Positions 10,610 to 21,891 of a stretch of 41,896 bases of DNA are shown piece after piece (the stretch's first letter is position 1; each line of letters begins with the position of its first letter). The position numbers were made by a program, and so were the translations under genes. Source of the DNA: an uncultured Methylococcaceae bacterium (GTDB taxonomy: Bacteria > Pseudomonadota > Gammaproteobacteria > Methylococcales > Methylomonadaceae); NCBI GenBank assembly GCA_903908165.1, contig CAIVQX010000023.1, forward strand, positions 1-41,896, read 5' to 3'. The notes beneath the pieces are model-generated. The model searched no databases, was not told where the DNA came from, and saw only the letters and a program-made list of their open reading frames with translations.

Positions 10610-13438
10610 ATGAGTGACCTACTTAAACTTTTTCAAGACTCATCTTCATTCCAAGGTAGTAATGCCAGTTTTATTGAAAATTTATATGAACGTTTTTTAG
10701 AAAACCCCGACTCTATCGAGTTGAGTTGGCAAAAAGAATTTAAGGCGCTTCAAAATGGATCGGCTTACGAAACTCCACATAGCCCAGTTGTAGCCCGTTT
10801 TGCAGAACTTTCTGCTAAATCTCAAGGTAGGTTAGCTCAGTTACAAGGTTTTACTGAAGAAAGTGTAAAAAAACAAGCTTCTGTTTCGCGCCTTATTAAC
10901 CATTATCGAGTGCGTGGTCATCAAATTGCTTACTGTAATCCGCTTGGAAAATTCGCTGCTAAACCAGCCGATATGGATCCAGCTTATTATGGTCTTTCAG
11001 TGCCAGATATGGATACACTATTTGATACAGGTGCTTTATTTGGTGAAGTTGATAGATTACCTCTGCGTGATATCATTCAAAACTTGAAAAACCTATACGG
11101 AGGTAGTATTGGTTATGAATACATGCACATTGTTGATACACAAATCAGACGTTGGTTAATAGGTCGTATAGAAAGCTCTAAAAATAAATTAGTTCTTAAT
11201 GCTGAGAATAAAAAAAGTATCTTAAAATTATTAACTGCCGCAGAAAGTATTGAGAGTTATCTCCATCATCGCTTTGTCGGTCAAAAACGTTTTTCACTGG
11301 AAGGTGGTGAATCTCTCATTGTAATTCTTGATGAATTAATACAGAGTTCTGGCAACAATGGCGTTAAAGAGATAGTCATCGGTATGGCGCATAGAGGTCG
11401 CTTGAATGTATTGGTTAACATTTTAGGGAAAAGTCCTGCCAGTTTGTTTAATGAATTCGAAGGGACCTCAGCTTTATCACCCGGTGTAAATTCTGGTGAT
11501 GTTAAATATCACATGGGTTTTTCATCTGACATTACAACTCCTGGAGGCGCAGTCCATCTGACCTTGGCATTTAATCCATCCCATTTAGAAATTATCAATC
11601 CGGTTGTTGAAGGTTCAGTAAAAGCAAGGCAGGATAGAGCCGGAATCGATGGGATAAATACGGTAATTCCGATTTTAATACATGGAGATGCTGCTTTTTC
11701 AGGCCAAGGAATTGTTATGGAAACCCTCAATATGTCACAAACTAGGGCTTTTTATACGGGGGGGACTGTTCACATTGTTATTAATAACCAAATCGGTTTC
11801 ACTACTAGTAATCCAGTTGATGCACGGTCAACTTTATACTGTACTGACGTGGCCAGTATGATTCAAGCGCCTGTTTTTCATGTTAATGGTGATGATCCCG
11901 AGGCAGTTATGTTTGTGACTAAACTCGCTCTTGATTATCGAATGACTTTCAATAAAGATGTGGTTATTGATCTTATTTGTTATCGTCGACTTGGTCATAA
12001 TGAAGCTGACGAACCAGCTACTACCCAACCCATGATGTATAGGAAGATACGCCAGCATCCAACTACACGACATATATATGCACAAGAACTGATTAGAGAA
12101 GACATCCTCAGCTTGGCGCAATCTAAAAAAATGGAGGATGATTACTTAAAGTTACTGGAGTCTGGGCAAGTAGTATCAAGACCAATATCATCAAACGCGA
12201 ATTATTCATATACAAATCAATGGAATAACTTTCTTAACATGGGCTGGGAAACACCATGTAAAACAGCTATTTCCATGGAACATTTACGCTTCTGTAATGA
12301 TCGTATGCAACGATTACCAAGTGGTTTTGAGCTTCATCCCCGTGTTGCCAAAGTGATGGAAAACCGCTCTAAAATGGCTGCTGGGTCACTACCGCTGGAT
12401 TGGGGCTTTGCTGAGAATATTGCTTATGCCAGTTTACTGTTAGAAAAATATAATATTCGGTTAACAGGTCAGGATGTTGGCAGAGGGACTTTTGTCCATC
12501 GTCATGCTGTATTTCATAACCAATTGAATAATAAAACATATACTCCAATTAAACATCTTGATAAAAATCAGGGTAATGCACAAATTTTTGATTCTTTATT
12601 ATCAGAAGCTGGAGTCTTGGGTTTTGAATATGGCTATAGTACAACAATGCCTAATACTTTGGTTATTTGGGAAGCGCAATTTGGAGACTTCGCTAATGGA
12701 GCTCAAGTTGTCATTGATCAGTTTATCAGTTCTGGTGAAACTAAATGGGGACGTTTTTGTGGCTTAGTTATGTTGTTGCCACATGGTTTTGAAGGGCAGG
12801 GACCAGAACATTCTTCAGCAAGATTGGAACGCTATTTACAACTTTGTGCCGAACATAATATTCAAGTTTGTTACCCTACGACACCTGCTCAAATATTCCA
12901 TTTGTTACGTCGTCAACTATTACGGCCTTATCGGAAACCTCTTATTATTATGAGCCCAAAAAGTTTATTGCGTCATAAACTTGCGGTGTCAACGCTTGAA
13001 GATATAACTAATGGCGCTTTCCAGCCAGTAATTGGCGAACAGGATAGTATTAATCCAGATGAGGTAACTCGGTTTATATTATGCACCGGTAAGGTTTATT
13101 ACGATTTACTGGAAGCTCGTCGTAAAGACAACCTTAAACATGTTGTTATTGCACGACTTGAGCAAATTTATCCCTTTCCTGATAAATTACTAAAACATGA
13201 GTTGGCAAAATATCCTCAGTTAAAAGATTTTATTTGGTGTCAAGAAGAGCCTAAGAATCAAGGCGCTTGGTATCAATCTAAACATCATTTTTCCGACAAT
13301 ATTTCAAATCAAATTAACATATCTTATGCTGGACGTGATCCGTCTGCAGCACCCGCTGTTGGGAACTTTCATGTTCATATAGAACAACAAAAAGCTGTCG
13401 TTCAATCAGCCTTATACGGCAATTTTTCAGGAAAATAA
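10610..13438 (+). CDS. sucA: 2-oxoglutarate dehydrogenase E1 component
   Basis: 942 residues, normal length for E1o. It is a thiamine-diphosphate enzyme that decarboxylates 2-oxoglutarate and passes succinyl to the lipoyl group of SucB. The N-terminal segment [22 protein letters not shown] is the E2-binding region of the family. [18 protein letters not shown] and [17 protein letters not shown] are E1o signatures. [19 protein letters not shown] followed by [12 protein letters not shown] is the ThDP-binding motif. The C-terminal half has [23 protein letters not shown] and [12 protein letters not shown]. It is the first gene of a tight sucA-sucB-E3-like operon; the sucB ATG begins 1 base after the stop. 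Confidence 0.97.
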
Positions 13439-13439
13439 A

Positions 13440-14666
13440 ATGAGTATTGAAGTTTTAGTTCCAAATTTACCCGAATCGATATCAGATGCAACTCTCATAA
13501 ACTGGCACAAACACAAAGGTGATTTTGTCAACAAAAATGAAAATCTTGTAGATCTTGAAACAGATAAAGTTGTTCTCGAAGTAACGGCGCCAGAATCTGG
13601 CGTACTAACTCAAATATTTAAAGATAATGGAGCTATCGTAACTAGTGGTGAAATACTTGCTCTATTGGATTTGGAAAATACGCAAGATATTCAAATTTCT
13701 TCTTCTGAAAAAAAATCTAGTGATGCTCTCATGCAAATTAACGAGGACATCCCTTTAAGTCCATCAGTCCGTCGATTAATTCATGAAAATGCTTTGGATC
13801 CATCAATAATCAAAGGATCGGGTAAAAGTGGACGCCTCACAAAAACGGACGTGATTGAACACTTAAGCAAGCAACAATTAAGCAATGGAAATATACAAAT
13901 TACGACTCAAGTAAAAACCACAGAACCGACTATTTCGACTGAAACAACTCCACTTGCAACTAACATACGTCCTGAACAACGCGTGGCAATGACTCGATTG
14001 AGGGTTAAAGTTGCAGAACGCTTATTACAGGCTCAACAAAATGCTGCAATGTTAACAACGTTTAACGAAGTTAATATGCAAAACGTTATAGATTTACGAA
14101 ATCAATACAAATCTCGGTTTGAACAAAAACATCAGGTCAAACTTGGTTTTATGTCATTTTTTGTTAAAGCATCAATAGAAGCTTTAAAACGCTTTCCCGC
14201 AATTAATGCCTCAATTGATGGAACTGATATTATTTATCATGGTTATTATGACATGGGGATTGCAGTTAGTACTCCGCGTGGTCTCATAGTACCAGTCTTA
14301 CATGATGCCGATCAGTTGGATTTTGCAGGTATCGAGAAAAGTATTAGCAATTTTGGAGAAAAAACCAAGACCGGAACGCTTACCTATGAAGACTTAAAAG
14401 GAGGTACATTTACCATAACAAATGGTGGAGTGTTCGGATCTATGTTATCCACGCCAATTCTTAATCCACCTCAATGTGCTATTTTAGGTATGCATGCTAT
14501 AAAAGATCGACCCGTTGTAGAAAATGGTCAAATTGTCATTAGGCCTATTATGTATCTGGCCTTATCATACGACCATCGCTTGGTTGATGGTCGAGAGGCA
14601 GTACAATTCTTGGTGACTATCAAAGAATGTTTAGAATCACCTGCTCATCTTTTACTTAATATTTAA
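13440..14666 (+). CDS. sucB: Dihydrolipoyllysine succinyltransferase (OGDH E2)
   Basis: 408 residues. It moves the succinyl group from its lipoyl arm to CoA. Domains in order: one lipoyl domain with the lipoylated Lys in [11 protein letters not shown] (near residue 42), a peripheral-subunit-binding domain ([21 protein letters not shown]), and the catalytic acyltransferase domain. The last has [19 protein letters not shown] and the active-site [12 protein letters not shown], where His and Asp are present. The subunit-binding domain is the docking site for E1/E3, so E3 docking appears intact even though the adjacent E3-like gene is abnormal. Confidence 0.97.
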
Positions 14667-14670
14667 AGGT

Positions 14671-16077
14671 ATGCATAAAAAAAATGCACATTTTGATGTA
14701 ATAGTTATTGGTGCAGGGCAAGATGGTTTCGCTAGTGCTATTCGCAGTGCTCAGCTTGGCTTTAAGACGGCTTGCATTGATACATGGAACCATAACAAAT
14801 CGCAGTATAAATTAAGTGATTCACATCTGAATACTGGGAGCCTAGCCTCAATGTGTTTATTTGAATCTGCAAAGATATATCAGCAAATCAATTCAACTAT
14901 TTCACAGCATGGCATTTATGCTGAAAATATTTCAGTTGATGTAAAGTCAATGATTCATCGTAAAGATAAAACAATCGAAAAAATAAGTCGAAATATGTCT
15001 GATTTATTTATTCAACACAATATAACTCACATAAAAGCAAAAGCTCAGCTGGTAAATGACCAGAAAATTGAAATTTCCGATTACGACACACAAGTTACAT
15101 CAATAATAAAAGCGAAACACATTATTCTAGCTACTGGCTCAATCCCAATTACTTTATCTGGTATTCCAATTGATAATAAATACATTATTGATACTATAAC
15201 GGCGTTAAATTTAGATTCAGTGCCAAAAAAAATGGCCATAATTGGTGCTGGGGTGGCTGGTCTTGAAATAGCTAGTATTTGGAATAGATTGGGCTCCGAA
15301 ATTATCTTACTTGAGGCTCAAGAAAACTTCTTATCGTTGGTCGACCAACAAATCTCATGTGAGGCTTTCCGCATTTTTCAAAACCAAGGATTGGATTTGC
15401 GTCTGGGTGCTCGTGTTATTTCTGCAAAAAAGAGTAACCATAAAGTATGTATTGAGTATCAAGATCAGGATGGTGTGCACCTACTTAATGTAGATAAATT
15501 AATCGTTGCATGCGGTAGAAAACCAAATACTGGAGAATTAGCAGCACCTGAAGCAAATTTATTACTTGATGATAATGGCTATGTTTATGCTGATGATTAT
15601 AATAGAACAAATCTGCCAGGTATTTACGCCATTGGTGACCTAACGTTACTCGGTCCTGCTGTATCTCACAAGGGTATAGAAGAGGGTGTTTTAGTTGCTC
15701 AACGGATAGCTGGCATCCATAAGTCACTTGATTATAAAAATATTCCTTGTGTGGTCTATACAGAACCTGAAATTGCATGGGTGGGTCAAAATGAGCAAGT
15801 ATTGCGCGCAAATGGTGAAAATATAAAAATCAGTGTGCGTACTTTTAATTCAAATTTTCGGGCACTAGCAATGGGCAAAAATGAGGGTATTGTTAAAATA
15901 ATTGCTAACTCAATTACTGATAAAATACTTGGTGTGCACATAATTGCAACACAAGCTTCCGAGTTAATTGCTGAAGCAGTTTTAGCAATGGAGTTCTCAG
16001 CTAGTACCGAAGATTTATTAAGCACTATACATGCTAATAATACTCTCTCTGAAATTTTACATGATGTGCTTAAATAA
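14671..16077 (+). CDS. E3-like flavoprotein without the redox disulfide (degenerate dihydrolipoyl dehydrogenase)
   Basis: 468 residues, the normal E3 length, starting 4 bases after sucB (AAAGGT as ribosome site). The fold is kept: FAD motif VIVIGAGQDGFASAIRSAQLG (G14xG16xxG19), NAD motif IIGAGVAGLEIASIWNRLG, ACGRKPNTG, YAIGDLTLLGPAVSHKGIEEG, and a C-terminal dimerisation domain. The catalytic residues are not. The family motif GGTCLNVGCIPSK aligns with SDSHLNTGSLASM, so the two redox cysteines are His52 and Ser57 and the following Lys is Met61. The catalytic HPTLSE aligns with NNTLSE, with His replaced by Asn456 and Glu461 kept. The frame is intact. Position says E3 of the OGDH complex; chemistry says it cannot reoxidise dihydrolipoamide by the known mechanism. 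A structural or new flavoenzyme role is possible. Confidence 0.85.
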   Translation: MHKKNAHFDVIVIGAGQDGFASAIRSAQLGFKTACIDTWNHNKSQYKLSDSHLNTGSLASMCLFESAKIYQQINSTISQHGIYAENISVDVKSMIHRKDKTIEKISRNMSDLFIQHNITHIKAKAQLVNDQKIEISDYDTQVTSIIKAKHIILATGSIPITLSGIPIDNKYIIDTITALNLDSVPKKMAIIGAGVAGLEIASIWNRLGSEIILLEAQENFLSLVDQQISCEAFRIFQNQGLDLRLGARVISAKKSNHKVCIEYQDQDGVHLLNVDKLIVACGRKPNTGELAAPEANLLLDDNGYVYADDYNRTNLPGIYAIGDLTLLGPAVSHKGIEEGVLVAQRIAGIHKSLDYKNIPCVVYTEPEIAWVGQNEQVLRANGENIKISVRTFNSNFRALAMGKNEGIVKIIANSITDKILGVHIIATQASELIAEAVLAMEFSASTEDLLSTIHANNTLSEILHDVLK

Positions 16078-16107: not shown

Positions 16108-16398
16108 TAAAAGCCTGTCTCTTTGTGTAATATTTTAATTAATATAACAATACCTTTTTAATCTTAAAATAGCTAAAATTCTTAGCTCTTCTATCTATAA
16201 AAATACTTGCTAAACCATAAGCAATAACAACCTCCCCCCAACAACTATTTGCCAAGTATTGAACTACAATTATCAAGGTAAATAATTGATGCGTTTCCTG
16301 ATGCGTTCAACTATCTAATTAACAGGCGATATACTGTCAATTTCAATATTGATACCTTTTTCTTATTGCCACATTTTTTTAATAGACTCGTTCATAAT
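16078..16398. other. Intergenic region before the polysaccharide cluster, about 320 bp
   Basis: Apart from the stem-loop at its left end I see no gene here. It should hold the promoter of the polysaccharide block. No convincing sigma-54 site (TGGCAC-N5-TTGC) was found by eye, although such promoters are expected for XrtA systems controlled by PrsK/PrsR. Confidence 0.4.
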
Positions 16399-18840
16399 AT
16401 GTTTATTTCCTGCAATTATCGAAACAACATTAAGAAAATAACAATCTACATCTTTTTTTTGGGATTGAGTTTACTTGTTAGCTGTAATAAGAACAAAGAA
16501 AATGATTCGAATAGCCATTTACAAAAAGGTATCGAATACATAAACAAAGGTGAGCTTACGAAAGCTAAGTTAGAAATAAAATCATCAAGCCAATCTGGCA
16601 AAGAAACAGCAGAAACATATTACTATATGGCCTTGCTAGACGAGAAAAACCAGCACTTTAAAGGCATGAAGGAAAATTTATTAAAAACGGTTGAGTTAGC
16701 TCCTGATTATATTGATGCAAGAATAAAGTTAGGGAAAGTTCAAGTTTTATTTGGAGAAACAGATAATGCAATGAGCCAAGCTGAATTTATTTTAAAAAAA
16801 ACAGGCCAAAATGTAGAAGCCTTAGAGTTAAAAGCTTCAGTACTCATAAAACAAAAAAAAACAGCCGAGGCGTTGGATATTATCGACCACATTTTAATAG
16901 ATAATCCACACAATACGGATGCATTATCATTAAAAGCTCTAATTTATATGGATAAGGAGAACTATAGTCAAGCGTTAGCTTTAATTGAAGACGCAAAGAA
17001 ATCAGATCCAACCAATATTGGTTTAGACTTTTTTAAAATTCAGCTAGATGCAAAAACTAAAAACATTGATGCTGTTATGGCTGATTATGAGAAATTAGTT
17101 TCTTTACATCCAGAAAATAGTGAATATAAAATAACTTTGGCTAAGATTTATGTCCAAGCAGCTAAAATAAAAGAAGCTGAAAAGTTATTATTCAGTTTAA
17201 TTGAATCAGAACCAAACAACGTAAAATCAAAACTATTGGTTCTTGATTTTTTAAGTGCAACAGCTTTAGATAGGGTTGATAAACAGTTCAAACTATTTCT
17301 TGATTTTCATAAGGATCAACCGAGAACATTGCTTGAATTGGCAAAGTGGATGATTGCAAGAAGAAACTTCGAAGCAGCAACGCCAGCACTTCAGCGAGTT
17401 ATAGAACTGGAAGAAGACTCATCAGTTGGATTGTCAGCAAAAATTATTTTTGCAAAGATGGAGTTTGATAATAAAAATTTCGATGCCACATCCAAAATTG
17501 TAAATGAAATTTTAGATGCTAATCCAAATTATGATGATGCTAAAGTTTTAGAAGCAAGAATATTCCTAATAAAAGAAAATTATGATGCCGCTATATCTTT
17601 ATTAAATAGGGTAATTTGGAGCAAAGAAGGTGCTGAAGAAGCTAATCTTTTGTTGGGGCAGATTTTCATAATAAAAGGTGATCTAAAAAAAGCTGATCAA
17701 TATTTCTCTAATGCATTGGAAAGTAATCCAGCTAACATCCAAGCATTAAATTATCTTTATGATAAAGCTATGTCAACGAATGACATTAAAGCCGGAAAAG
17801 CCATCATTGAAAAAGCCTTAGTCATAAGACCTAACAGCATTGTTTTTCTTGAAAAGATGGCTAATATTAATTTATTAGAACATGATTGGGAGAAAGCAAA
17901 GGCAATAATTCAAAAAATTGCAACCTCACCAGATCCATTAGCAAACAATGTTGCAAGCTATTTACTGGCACAAGTGCTTCAAGGTCAAGGAAGTTATCAA
18001 AAAGCGATAGACATTTATAAAACATTACTGAAAGTCTTTCCTGAAAACAGTGATGCTCTAGGAAATATGGCTCGTTGCTATGAAAAGTTAAATAAGCGAT
18101 CAGACATGATCAACTATTTGAACGAATTACTGGCAATAAATCCTCAAAATATTCCAGCTGGTATTCTACAAGTTGATTTGTTGTTATTAAACAAGGAATT
18201 TGACAAAAGCGAATTATTACTAACAAATTTAATTAAGACGAATGTAAAAGTTCCTCAATTATATGTTTCATTGGCAAGTATATACTTCAATAAGAAAGAT
18301 GTTGATCATGCAATTTCAGTTTATGAAGATGGGTTAATTAAAAATCCTGGCGATATCAAGCTAGCTTTATCATTGGCAAATTTATATGAACATCAAGGAA
18401 AATATGATGAAGCTATCTCAATTTACGAGACACTATTAAAAACCAATCCTAGTCTTGATATTGCTGCTAATAATTTGGCAGCAATATTGAGCGAGCATTA
18501 TGTTGATGAAAATAGCCTGAAAAAAGCCGTCCAACTAGCTGATAAATTTAAACACTCGAATAAACCTTTTTATAAAGATACCTACGCTTGGTCCTTAATT
18601 AAAACAGGAAATATAAACGAAGGATTAAAGACATTGACTGAGATTGTTACTGCTTCACCCAAGATACCCGTATTCAGGTATCATTTAGGTGTGGCTTATT
18701 ATATGAATGGCAACAATAGTTTGGCAATGAATGAAATCAATCAAGCAATTGAACTTGATAATAAGGTAGGTTTTTTTCAAGATAGAAAAAATGCTGAAAA
18801 ATTACTTAATGAAATTATACATAAGATAAAAGGGAGTTGA
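16399..18840 (+). CDS. prsT: PEP-CTERM/XrtA-system TPR-repeat lipoprotein PrsT
   Basis: 813 residues from the first ATG at 16399; an upstream in-frame TTG at 16366 is less likely. A basic N-terminus leads to a hydrophobic helix (ITIYIFFLGLSLLV) and a lipobox LVSC, giving a lipid-modified Cys29. The rest is about twenty tetratricopeptide repeats (for example YYYMALLDEKNQHFKGMKENLLKTVELAPD and LSLANLYEHQGKYDEAISIYETLL). Length, lipobox and continuous TPRs fit the PrsT family found beside exosortase-A polysaccharide loci. By analogy with other TPR lipoproteins of exopolysaccharide systems it may scaffold export or modification proteins in the periplasm. It starts the co-directional block. Confidence 0.88.
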   Translation: MFISCNYRNNIKKITIYIFFLGLSLLVSCNKNKENDSNSHLQKGIEYINKGELTKAKLEIKSSSQSGKETAETYYYMALLDEKNQHFKGMKENLLKTVELAPDYIDARIKLGKVQVLFGETDNAMSQAEFILKKTGQNVEALELKASVLIKQKKTAEALDIIDHILIDNPHNTDALSLKALIYMDKENYSQALALIEDAKKSDPTNIGLDFFKIQLDAKTKNIDAVMADYEKLVSLHPENSEYKITLAKIYVQAAKIKEAEKLLFSLIESEPNNVKSKLLVLDFLSATALDRVDKQFKLFLDFHKDQPRTLLELAKWMIARRNFEAATPALQRVIELEEDSSVGLSAKIIFAKMEFDNKNFDATSKIVNEILDANPNYDDAKVLEARIFLIKENYDAAISLLNRVIWSKEGAEEANLLLGQIFIIKGDLKKADQYFSNALESNPANIQALNYLYDKAMSTNDIKAGKAIIEKALVIRPNSIVFLEKMANINLLEHDWEKAKAIIQKIATSPDPLANNVASYLLAQVLQGQGSYQKAIDIYKTLLKVFPENSDALGNMARCYEKLNKRSDMINYLNELLAINPQNIPAGILQVDLLLLNKEFDKSELLLTNLIKTNVKVPQLYVSLASIYFNKKDVDHAISVYEDGLIKNPGDIKLALSLANLYEHQGKYDEAISIYETLLKTNPSLDIAANNLAAILSEHYVDENSLKKAVQLADKFKHSNKPFYKDTYAWSLIKTGNINEGLKTLTEIVTASPKIPVFRYHLGVAYYMNGNNSLAMNEINQAIELDNKVGFFQDRKNAEKLLNEIIHKIKGS

Positions 18841-18888
18841 TCCTTACATAATTATGTATTTAGTCTATTATTGTTTTGGGAGTAAATT

Positions 18889-19899
18889 TTGAAGATATTG
18901 GTAACAGGAGCAGCTGGTTTTATTGGTGCGGCACTCACATTAAGACTGCTGAAACGAGGTGATGAGGTCATAGGGATAGACAATTTAAATGATTATTATG
19001 ATACCAATTTAAAACTGGCGAGATTGGAAACTATTTTACATTATGCCAACTTTAAATTTATAAAGATTGATATTTCAGATAAAACGAAGATAGAAGCACT
19101 TTTTGAAAATGAAAAATTTGATAACGTTATGCATCTGGCTGCACAAGCTGGTGTCAGATACTCTATATCAAATCCACATGCATATATTGACTCCAATATT
19201 GTTGGTTTTTTGAATATATTAGAGGGTTGTAGAAACAATAAAATAAAGCACTTTGTCTACGCTTCATCAAGTTCAGTATATGGTGCTAATACAAAAATGC
19301 CTTTTTCTGTTCATGATAACGTAGACCACCCCGTTTCATTATATGCTGCTAGTAAAAAAACAAATGAATTAATGGCTCATACATACAGCCATCTTTATGG
19401 ACTCGCAACAACCGGATTACGTTTTTTTACGGTTTATGGCCCTTGGGGAAGACCAGATATGTCATTATTTAAATTTACTCAAAATATCCTTGAAGGGAAG
19501 CCAATAGATGTTTTTAACTACGGCAACCATCGTCGTGATTTTACATATATTGACGATATTGTCGAAGGTGTTATGAGAGTAATAGATAACCCGGCTCAGA
19601 AAAATAATCATTGGGATGGTAATTGTCCAGATCCTGGTACTAGTTTGGCGCCTTACAGAATATACAATATTGGCAATAACAATCCTGTTTCACTATTAAA
19701 CTTCATTGAAACTCTCGAAAAATGTTTAGGTAAGGAAGCAAAAAAAACCTTGCTTCCTATGCAGCAAGGTGATGTTCCTGATACTTATGCTGATGTAAGT
19801 GATTTTATTTCAGATTTTGATTATAAGCCGGACACAATTTTAGAGATTGGAGTTCGTAACTTTGTTGAATGGTATAAAAATTTCTATAGGAAGACTTGA
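18889..19899 (+). CDS. UDP-glucuronate 4-epimerase-type NAD-dependent epimerase
   Basis: 336 residues. The start is a TTG with GGGAG 6 bases upstream, in register with the family start [21 protein letters not shown]. It is a short-chain extended epimerase: NAD motif TGAAGFIG, catalytic [11 protein letters not shown] (Tyr-x3-Lys), [11 protein letters not shown], and [22 protein letters not shown]. The [15 protein letters not shown] segment is typical of UDP-glucuronate 4-epimerases rather than GalE. It probably interconverts UDP-glucuronate and UDP-galacturonate, or their N-acetyl forms made by the next gene. Its stop codon overlaps the next start (TGATG), implying translational coupling. Confidence 0.88.
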
Positions 19900-21191
19900 T
19901 GACACCTCATGGTAGGAAAATATCAGTTGTTGGCTTAGGCTATGTCGGCTTACCTGTGGCGGTAGAGTTTGGCAAATATCAGCACGTTATTGGATTTGAC
20001 ATAAGTACTACCAGAATTGAAGATTTACAAAAAGGTATAGAAAAAACTAACGAAGTTGATGCTATGGATTTGGCTGCGACAGATGTTTTATATACGAACG
20101 ATGCTGCTGATATAAGAAAAGCTGATTTTCACATCATAGCCGTGCCAACACCAGTTAATGAATCGAAACAACCTGATTTTTTACCTCTTATTAGCGCAAC
20201 AAAAACCGTAGGACAACAACTTAAAAAAGGTGATATCGTTGTTTTTGAATCTACGGTTTATCCTGGAGCTACTGAAGAGATATGCATCCCTGTTCTTGAA
20301 AAGGAATCAAATCTTATTTGGCAAACAGATTTCAACGTTGGCTATTCCCCAGAACGAATAAATCCTGGTGATAAGTTACATGCTTTTAAATCAATCACGA
20401 AAGTTGTATCAGGTGACTCAGTCAGCACATTAAATATTGTCGCTACTGTTTATGGTTCAGTTGTTGATGCAGGAGTATATAAAGCGGCATCAATGAAAGT
20501 GGCTGAGGCTGCTAAAGTTATAGAAAATACTCAGCGAGATTTAAACATTTCATTGATGAATGAATTGGCACTGATTTTCAATAAAATGAATATAGATACT
20601 TCAGATGTTTTGGCCGCAGCTTCTTCCAAATGGAATTTTTTACCCTTTGAGCCTGGTTTAGTAGGAGGCCATTGTATTGGCGTAGATCCTTATTACTTAA
20701 CATACAAATCAATCATATCTGGATATATTCCTCAAGTTATTCTTTCTGGTAGAAGAATAAATGATGGAATGGGTGGTTTTATAGCTTCCCAAGCAATAAA
20801 AGAACTGATTAAACTTGGTGCCTGTATTAAAGACAGTATTGTAACTATTTTAGGCTTTACCTTTAAAGAAAATATTCCAGACATTAGAAATACACGTGTT
20901 ATTGATATAGTTAGAGAGTTACAAGAGTATGGTGTCATTGTTCAAGTTTTTGATCCGTTGTCATCGCCAGATGAGATTCAAAAAGCCTACAATATAACGG
21001 TTTCAAATAATGAGTCACTAATGCAAACTGCACAAGCAGTAATACTTGCTGTTCCACACAAATATTTCCTAGAAAAGAATTGGGAATACATTTCAAATCT
21101 TTTAAATAAAAAAACAGGTGTTGTAATTGATGTTAAAGGCAAGCTTGATAGGAATAAAATTCCCGAGAACATAACCCTATGGAGACTTTAG
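19899..21191 (+). CDS. UDP-N-acetylhexosamine 6-dehydrogenase (TviB/WbpO-like)
   Basis: 430 residues from the ATG that overlaps the epimerase stop by one base; a TTG one codon earlier is not needed. It is a nucleotide-sugar dehydrogenase of the UDP-Glc/ManNAc/GalNAc family: NAD motif VGLGYVGLP, FESTVYPGATEE, VGYSPERINPGD, VIENTQRDLNISLMNELA, and the catalytic Cys in GGHCIGVDPYYL. The C-terminal domain has FTFKENIPDIRNTRV. The details resemble the Vi-antigen TviB/WbpO group, which oxidise UDP-GlcNAc or UDP-GalNAc to uronic acids. Coupled to the epimerase, it points to an aminohexuronic acid in the polysaccharide; the exact sugar is inference. Confidence 0.88.
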   Translation: MTPHGRKISVVGLGYVGLPVAVEFGKYQHVIGFDISTTRIEDLQKGIEKTNEVDAMDLAATDVLYTNDAADIRKADFHIIAVPTPVNESKQPDFLPLISATKTVGQQLKKGDIVVFESTVYPGATEEICIPVLEKESNLIWQTDFNVGYSPERINPGDKLHAFKSITKVVSGDSVSTLNIVATVYGSVVDAGVYKAASMKVAEAAKVIENTQRDLNISLMNELALIFNKMNIDTSDVLAAASSKWNFLPFEPGLVGGHCIGVDPYYLTYKSIISGYIPQVILSGRRINDGMGGFIASQAIKELIKLGACIKDSIVTILGFTFKENIPDIRNTRVIDIVRELQEYGVIVQVFDPLSSPDEIQKAYNITVSNNESLMQTAQAVILAVPHKYFLEKNWEYISNLLNKKTGVVIDVKGKLDRNKIPENITLWRL

Positions 21192-21243
21192 CTAAAAAGG
21201 TTAGAGGCCTGTTACTATAAAAAATCTAAACAGGAAAGATAGT

Positions 21244-21891
21244 ATGTGTTTTACAACAAAAATGAAAAGTATATTTTGTATCATTATTTTACTAGCATCT
21301 GGATGTGGATATGCGCCTTTAAGCCAAGATGAAGATGCAGTAATTCCTTCTGATTACACATATATTATCGGCCCTGGTGATAGTGTAAATATATTTGTTT
21401 GGGGAAACCCAGATATATCGACTACTGCTACAGTGCGACCAGATGGGAAAATCACAATTCCATTAGCTGAAGATTTATTGGCGAGTGGTAAAACGCCCTC
21501 TCAATTAGCTAGAGTAATGGAAAAAGCGCTCTCTAAATATGTTAGAGACCCTCAGGTAGTTATCATGGTCGGAGGGTTTCAAGGTGTATATAGCCAACAA
21601 GTAAGAATTATAGGGCAATTAAGTGGCGGTGGCGGTGGAGGGGGCTCAGCACATTATTCAGCCAAAAGTTTTCCTTATAAAAAAGATATGACTTTACTCG
21701 ACTTAGTCATCCAAATAGGTGGTATGGGTCAATATGCCGATGGCAATAGAGCTAGCATTATCAGAAACATAGATGGAGAACCTCAGCACTTTGGAATTAG
21801 AATTGACGATTTGGTTGATAACTCGGATTTAACAGCTAATATCAAGATCTTACCTGGTGATATTATCATAATTCCCGAATCATTTTTTTGA
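21244..21891 (+). CDS. XrtA-associated polysaccharide export lipoprotein (Wza/EpsA type)
   Basis: 215 residues. AGGA lies about 8 bases before the ATG. The signal peptide ends in ILLASGC, giving lipid-modified Cys21. A poly_export (PES) domain follows: YTYIIGPGDSVNIFVWGNPDISTTATVRPDGKI, ending with a SLBB-like segment (KKDMTLLDLVIQIGGMGQYADGNRA) and ILPGDIIIIPESFF. It is the outer-membrane export component working with the chain-length protein and kinase downstream, and is much shorter than E. coli Wza (about 380), as usual in XrtA loci. An odd run of seven glycines (residues 128-134) followed by SAHYSAK sits where the family normally has a short loop after the first domain. Confidence 0.9.
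   Translation: MCFTTKMKSIFCIIILLASGCGYAPLSQDEDAVIPSDYTYIIGPGDSVNIFVWGNPDISTTATVRPDGKITIPLAEDLLASGKTPSQLARVMEKALSKYVRDPQVVIMVGGFQGVYSQQVRIIGQLSGGGGGGGSAHYSAKSFPYKKDMTLLDLVIQIGGMGQYADGNRASIIRNIDGEPQHFGIRIDDLVDNSDLTANIKILPGDIIIIPESFF

Follow-up and report, generated by a model that had tools for sequence, protein, structure and literature searches.

A maintained E3-like protein with an incomplete redox centre in the 2-oxoglutarate dehydrogenase operon of a gammaproteobacterial family

The E3-like gene of the 2-oxoglutarate dehydrogenase (OGDH) operon in the family studied here, which we take to be the Methylomonadaceae of GTDB, encodes a maintained protein that has lost its redox relay, and this is confirmed for far more than one genome: the redox centre is incomplete in 142/142 family sequences. 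An E3 without the CxxxxC pair cannot re-oxidize dihydrolipoamide by the normal route; judged by its sequence, this protein, here called pseudo-E3 (an E3-like protein without the redox centre), has almost certainly lost E3 chemistry.

The operon and its third gene

The window, by which we mean the whole stretch of 41,896 nucleotides that was analysed, carries on its forward strand sucA (10610-13438), encoding the E1 of OGDH (942 residues; NCBIfam PRK09404.1, 1323.9 bits; TIGR00239, 1234.9 bits), sucB (13440-14666), encoding the E2 succinyltransferase (408 residues; NCBIfam PRK05704.1, 574.8 bits), and, starting 4 bases past the sucB stop, the gene for pseudo-E3 (14671-16077; 468 residues), which, as a preliminary description of this DNA had stated, is one full-length, uninterrupted open frame in third place after sucA and sucB. 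SucB contains a lysine, Lys43 in the motif DLETDKV (13566; spotted by eye in the sequence), presumably the lipoyl-carrying one, and an E3-binding domain (residues 105-138, 13752-13853; Pfam PF02817, 40.6 bits), which a comparison across groups finds conserved in the window and in the relatives displayed. Co-evolution of this domain (VRK to VRR) was considered and set aside, as the signal is too weak to use.

In pseudo-E3, the sites of the first redox cysteine (C1), the second (C2) and the conserved lysine are occupied by His52 (14824-14826), Ser57 (14839-14841) and Met61 (14851-14853), and that of the catalytic histidine by Asn456 (16036-16038); these codons are as first described, and translation, family tally and structure alignment agree on them, the alignment to solved E3 structures pairing H52, S57 and M61 with C, C and K of Pseudomonas aeruginosa LpdG, and N456 with the LpdG histidine, which confirms the register. 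Glu461 (16051-16053), the partner of the catalytic histidine, is retained by translation and column comparison. The cofactor motifs are intact, again as described: in the FAD motif GxGxxG (residues 14-19, 14710-14727), G14 and G16 are invariant and G19 nearly so across 52 sequences, and in the same sequences the glycines G192, G194 and G197 of the NAD motif GxGxxG (GAGVAG; residues 192-197, 15244-15261) and the second FAD motif Gly-Asp (residues 322-323, 15634-15639) are invariant; the FAD loop of the window is unusual, reading GAGQDG where most relatives have GAGPAG. Tested for membership of the pyridine nucleotide-disulphide oxidoreductase superfamily, the protein has the Pyr_redox_2 and Pyr_redox_dim domains (Pfam PF07992 at 166.5 bits and PF02852 at 102.2 bits, both well over their cut-offs) and the predicted fold; of the features of an E3 (EC 1.8.1.4), the FAD and NAD motifs are present, and the CxxxxC, the lysine and a complete His-Glu pair are absent. 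The AlphaFold model has a pLDDT of 88.5 and is weak at residues 1-3 and 40-47, just ahead of the former redox helix; its best match in the PDB is P. aeruginosa LpdG (Foldseek TM 0.96, 40% identity).

The source genome (2.78 Mb in 210 contigs) has a strong gene of the methane/ammonia monooxygenase family (PF02461, 1.5e-128) and is taken as that of a type I methanotroph, its nearest named relatives being uncultured Methylococcaceae and a Methyloprofundus. Downstream of the operon, at 16366-21891, the window encodes a TPR protein, an epimerase, a UDP-glucose/GDP-mannose dehydrogenase and a polysaccharide export protein, in what looks like an exopolysaccharide cluster.

Redox-centre loss across the family and its order

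The residues at the catalytic sites were tallied over 142 aligned E3 orthologues from 141 genomes and 25 genera of the window's own family. By our own reading of the match table, 150 of 201 genomes have an orthologue-level match, one of them (G008) broken; the tally takes 140 rows from 139 of these genomes, together with G285 and G293, and leaves outside two full-length sequences (G114, G123) and seven partial matches (G064, G113, G157, G176, G182, G188, G194). A further sequence outside the 142, that of G093, has Tyr, Cys, Met, His and Glu at the five sites.

Cysteine is found at position 52 (C1) in none of the 142 rows, the site being Tyr in 73, His in 42, Phe in 25 and Asn or Val in one each; position 61 is Met in 59, Ile in 45, Leu in 20, Val in 17 and Phe in one, that is hydrophobic in 142/142 and Lys in none. 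The other three sites are altered less often: position 57 (C2) is Cys in 105 rows, Ser in 18, Gly in 13, Asp in three, Asn in two and Thr in one; position 456 is His in 109, Arg in 23, Tyr in eight and Ser or Asn in one each; position 461 is Glu in 116, Lys in 20, Asp in three and Ser in three, with Lys in all 20 rows of genus g15. His and Glu are jointly retained in 84/142 rows, and C2, His and Glu in 75/142. Two further columns follow the redox centre: Arg at 327 and Gly at 108 occur in 22/22 intact sequences and are gone from nearly all of the 146 altered ones (Arg at 327 persists in about 1%; the window has Leu327, 15649-15651), while many other conserved sites are retained in these 146. 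Arg327 and Lys61 presumably lie near the flavin. The redox region is highly variable in the rows of genus g18 (L172, L175, L199, L200 and others), and G186 has two E3-like copies (L109 and L115), one at a contig end, both with Tyr at C1 and Lys for Glu.

A cysteine at position 52 in 0/142 rows means that the loss is due neither to chance nor to sequencing error, and a strain defect or a misread is thus ruled out as its cause; close relatives with an intact CxxxxC, which the preliminary description had envisaged as evidence against its claim, did not turn up among the 142 rows. The control for the class as a whole comes from 143 gammaproteobacterial genomes, 75 of which have a match at 1e-100, one being the window's own; the other 74 loci, which come from 74 other families and were selected by this similarity, not by adjacency to sucAB, comprise 72 complete C-C-K-H-E sets and two fragments that are intact where covered. 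Within the same order, the E3 is intact in 9/9 sequences of families f7 (seven) and f8 (two), read at loci L240-L246, L248 and L250, and altered in all four sequences read from f2 (one), f5 (one) and f6 (two), of which f6 lacks C1 and still has C2 and Lys. The genomes of f3 and f4, the latter presumably the family of Methylococcus capsulatus, gave no odhL-like match better than 6.8e-94, and the three f3/f4 matches read are intact Lpd of the pyruvate dehydrogenase (PDH) type. Methane oxidation was tried as a marker of E3 loss and rejected, as a Pfam AMO search gave no clean split: AMO-family genes turn up in several f7 genomes and in the two from f8, where the E3 is intact, with E-values of about 1e-85 to 1e-111 that are weaker than those of the other families, and the listed AMO matches do not include G201 (f2) or G204 (f5), whose E3 is altered.

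The order of the losses was read from a FastTree tree of 168 rows with the redox columns removed, in which the position of long-branch rows (g18, g25, f2, f5 and others) is less reliable; L199 and L200 of g18 sit on very long branches and their placement is unsure. This tree requires one change at C1, two at Lys, nine at C2, nine at His and seven at Glu. C1 was probably lost first, because f6, without C1, still has Lys and C2; Lys would have followed. The clade of the window comprises 22 rows of g1 and three of g23; His changed to Arg on the branch leading to all 25, G049 still having C2, and the reconstruction then places a change of C2 to Gly (24 rows), later to Ser or Asp, and last a change of Arg to Asn in the window, and to Asn and then Ser in G172. 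With C1 lost once, and C2, His and Glu lost on several later occasions, the window is a case of late erosion, and the tree rules out the original proposal that all four catalytic positions were lost at once. Of 13 changes inferred at the C1 site after the loss, 10 do not leave the set Tyr/Phe/His, and three lead to Ser in f6, Asn in g25 and Val in one g18 row; an aromatic residue or His thus seems to be wanted there. The family offers a clean natural series in which an active site is lost stepwise while selection continues.

Genuine Lpd and the role of pseudo-E3

The preliminary description had placed the real E3 elsewhere in the genome, and a search for a second lpd bore this out: contig C16 of the same genome has an lpd with GGVCLNVGCIPSK and HPHPTLAE, whose adjoining frames are interpreted as aceE and aceF. 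Its product passes the TIGR01350 model at 509.2 bits and is 31% identical to the pseudo-E3 of the window; all 15 PDH-type Lpd sequences read (this one and L254-L267, the latter typed by similarity) are intact. A 716-residue frame (L002; G000:C115:17257-18612) encodes a relative among the flavoprotein disulfide reductases with an intact GGDCLNTGCVPSK motif and an extra region. A search of the window's own genome with PF01855 for a 2-oxoglutarate:ferredoxin oxidoreductase gave one match, a 1226-residue frame that is NifJ-like by size, and a second, weak one that by eye resembles acetolactate synthase.

TIGR01350 (cut-off 408.8) is itself blind to the missing redox centre, as altered E3s pass it: P0002 scores 466, L024 454.4 and L041 460.3, while L172 (396.4) and the window protein (387.6) fail. 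With three of five altered proteins passing, pseudo-E3 will probably be treated as a working enzyme in annotation and metabolic models.

The best reading of these data, which we regard as fairly probable, is a maintained pseudo-E3 that has retained its predicted fold and cofactor sites, probably docks on SucB, does not carry out normal dihydrolipoamide oxidation and holds back NAD+-linked OGDH; the docking and the braking are the parts that we infer. Taken by itself, docking on SucB is likely; a role as a brake on OGDH is not far short of an even prospect. Pseudo-E3 would be co-produced with SucB, form the usual dimer and dock on the E3-binding domain, occupying sites otherwise open to the genuine Lpd of the PDH operon; NAD+-linked OGDH would stay low, and turnover would be left to whichever genuine Lpd gets in. 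The retained FAD and NAD sites further suggest a reaction with NADH, in which pseudo-E3 might act as a redox sensor or, like yeast Irc15p, hand electrons on to quinone-like acceptors.

The foremost alternative, a serious one although we place it well under even, is that the protein has become an NADH:acceptor oxidoreductase (a diaphorase or quinone reductase), its link to SucB being a relic. This would agree with the near-invariance of the FAD and NAD sites, with the Tyr that replaces C1 in 73/142 rows and with the reduction of quinone-type acceptors by Irc15p and Mycobacterium tuberculosis LpdA, as given in the accessible part of PMC6296175. Gene order cuts both ways. The E3-like gene starts 1-29 bases past sucB in 126 of the 134 loci with a SucB match (starts chosen by script; the remaining eight have larger gaps), and SucB has kept its E3-binding domain, both of which speak against a relic; sucB was not seen at 6/140 E3-like loci. 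In G016 (L170, genus g16) about 1.7 Mb of a single contig separate the gene from sucAB, and in G066 (L171, also g16) it has no adjacent sucB, the altered sequence being conserved in both; a gene kept so far from sucAB in G016 is a poor fit with a role tied to SucB alone and favours the oxidoreductase, for which, however, no acceptor site was identified. At three loci of genus g13 (L205 in G013, L206 in G109, L207 in G096) sucA is solitary and sucB lies elsewhere in the genome.

It is improbable that pseudo-E3 is a working E3 by other chemistry, either in a mixed dimer with genuine Lpd or with the dihydrolipoyl thiol reacting directly at the flavin, aided by C2 and His-Glu. In its favour, each E3 active site is built from both subunits, and C2, His and Glu are jointly retained in 75/142 rows; but C2 and His are gone in the window clade, Glu is replaced by Lys throughout g15, the genuine Lpd is just 31% identical, and Arg at 327 and Lys at 61 have gone as well.

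Neutral decay of a redundant E3 toward loss is less probable still, and the preliminary claim that the gene is under selection despite the lost relay stands. dN/dS was estimated from 199 of 8385 pairs, those with dS of 0.05-1.2 in both genes; the pairs are not independent, and 133 come from g15. The E3-like gene has a median of 0.103 and sucB one of 0.083, and in the 22 pairs with both cysteines lost the figures are 0.076 against 0.083 for SucB; the 15 such pairs within g1 give 0.040-0.095, close to SucB, and the window against its nearest relative, L054 (345 codons), gives 0.1061/1.3114 = 0.081, at a dS above the limit of 1.2 applied to the other pairs. These values, and a C1 site that is Tyr, Phe or His in 140/142 rows, weigh against decay; the gene is with near certainty held by selection for a retained function. 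Decay would in turn account for the many separate losses of C2 and His, for an E3 dN/dS above that of SucB in g15 (0.107 against 0.080) and g29 (0.134 against 0.096), and for the raised ratio of E3 to SucB dN, measured to outgroups, in the window, L031 and five more g1 rows (1.64-1.85, against 1.28-1.51 in the remaining g1 and g23 rows). It would also account for absences: no orthologue-level E3 match was found in any sampled genome of g12, g13 and g21, in all of which except G101 SucA is present, nor in G004, G077, G098, G104, G106, G121, G181 and G193, single genomes of other genera, some of them incomplete. In G008 (g9; L208:5132-6579; a 5-contig assembly) the gene lies in three pieces in different frames and thus looks broken in that lineage; of the frameshifts in sister strains that had been named as a sign of relaxed selection, this is the one case, purifying selection being indicated elsewhere by dN/dS. 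Random decay is ruled out by dN/dS as the main account, though losses in single lineages do occur.

A sequencing, assembly or binning artefact, to which the 210 contigs of the window's genome might point, can be dismissed for practical purposes, as neither C1 nor Lys is present in any of 141 genomes, the two-contig genome of Methylotuvimicrobium alcaliphilum 20Z included.

OGDH in methanotrophs and comparison with known systems

A maintained pseudo-E3 may help to explain why OGDH activity has been elusive in methanotrophs, and it adds a concrete, testable element to the puzzle in M. alcaliphilum 20Z (G037, in two contigs), whose own E3 (P0002) carries Tyr at the C1 site and Met at that of the Lys. 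G037 is identified as 20Z by 15 kb of its 128,415-base contig, which match the equally long 20Z plasmid at 100% identity. According to the accessible passages of PMC5802761, PDH activity in 20Z extracts is 120 nmol/min/mg on methane and 290 nmol/min/mg on methanol, and OGDH with NAD+ is given as 'N.D.', both enzymes being followed in one assay, by NADH formation at 340 nm with CoA and TPP. If 'N.D.' stands for not detected, the extract contained a functional PDH Lpd, yet OGDH went unseen; the entry, whose abbreviation those passages do not explain, could also mean low expression or not determined. The same passages report succinate-semialdehyde dehydrogenase activity, which points to an OGDH bypass, and gene knockouts have already been made in this strain, as stated in the part of PMC10602362 at hand.

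For type I methanotrophs more widely, the parts of PMC517821 and PMC8527097 available describe OGDH genes that are carried and OGDH activity that is not measurable; for M. capsulatus, the former has sucAB (MCA1952, MCA1953) present and OGDH activity absent. Since M. capsulatus is without OGDH activity and no third gene was found in f4, pseudo-E3 can be at most part of the answer. On the other hand, 13C labelling indicates a full TCA cycle in M. buryatense on methane (accessible parts of PMC6456754, PMC10602362 and PMC5652258), and in Methylomonas sp. DH-1 the OGDH genes are highly expressed and the cycle seems to run (PMC6373157, from the portion available); Methylomonas is genus g12 here (G107 is Methylomonas sp. 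UP202), a genus without the operon E3-like gene. A literature search, conducted mostly without subscription papers, found no report of E3 redox-centre loss in methanotrophs.

A broader scenario, which we consider rather unlikely as a whole, would have OGDH rewired in the ancestor of most type I methanotrophs: its own E3 would have turned into a docking subunit that is redox-dead, senses NAD(H) and restricts or diverts the electrons of dihydrolipoyl-SucB, such that OGDH would work in vivo while extracts show little NAD+-linked activity. If true, this would explain part of the old finding of 'no OGDH, incomplete TCA cycle' in type I methanotrophs.

Among known systems, pseudo-E3 shares with the OGDH E3 (odhL, LpdG type) its place in the operon, its length, its predicted fold and the FAD and NAD motifs; it differs in that the window protein is without the CxxxxC, the Lys and the catalytic His, C1 and Lys being missing in all family rows read. 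The PDH E3 (lpd at aceE-aceF) belongs to the same superfamily and could serve OGDH in trans; in contrast to pseudo-E3, it has the full CxxxxC-Lys-His-Glu set. M. tuberculosis LpdA, a flavoprotein disulfide reductase relative that reduces quinones, is also incomplete in its centre, where a single Cys and the His-Glu pair are missing; it is compared here by its description in the available part of PMC6296175. The closest known parallel found, by analogy and on the same partial source, is Irc15p of Saccharomyces cerevisiae, a paralogue of Lpd1 that has Tyr and Ala at the two Cys sites and binds FAD, is reduced by NADH, reduces menadione and DCPIP, and is inert to lipoamide (PMC6296175). Both are E3 homologues whose redox cysteines have gone, Tyr for the first Cys of Irc15p recurring in 73/142 rows; set against Irc15p, the window protein has both redox cysteines replaced (H52, S57) and does not retain His-Glu (N456). 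Irc15p, likened here by description (PMC6296175), retains His-Glu, carries Ala in place of the second Cys and associates with microtubules; and where Irc15p is a paralogue alongside a working Lpd1, pseudo-E3 is the E3 of the OGDH operon itself, throughout a family.
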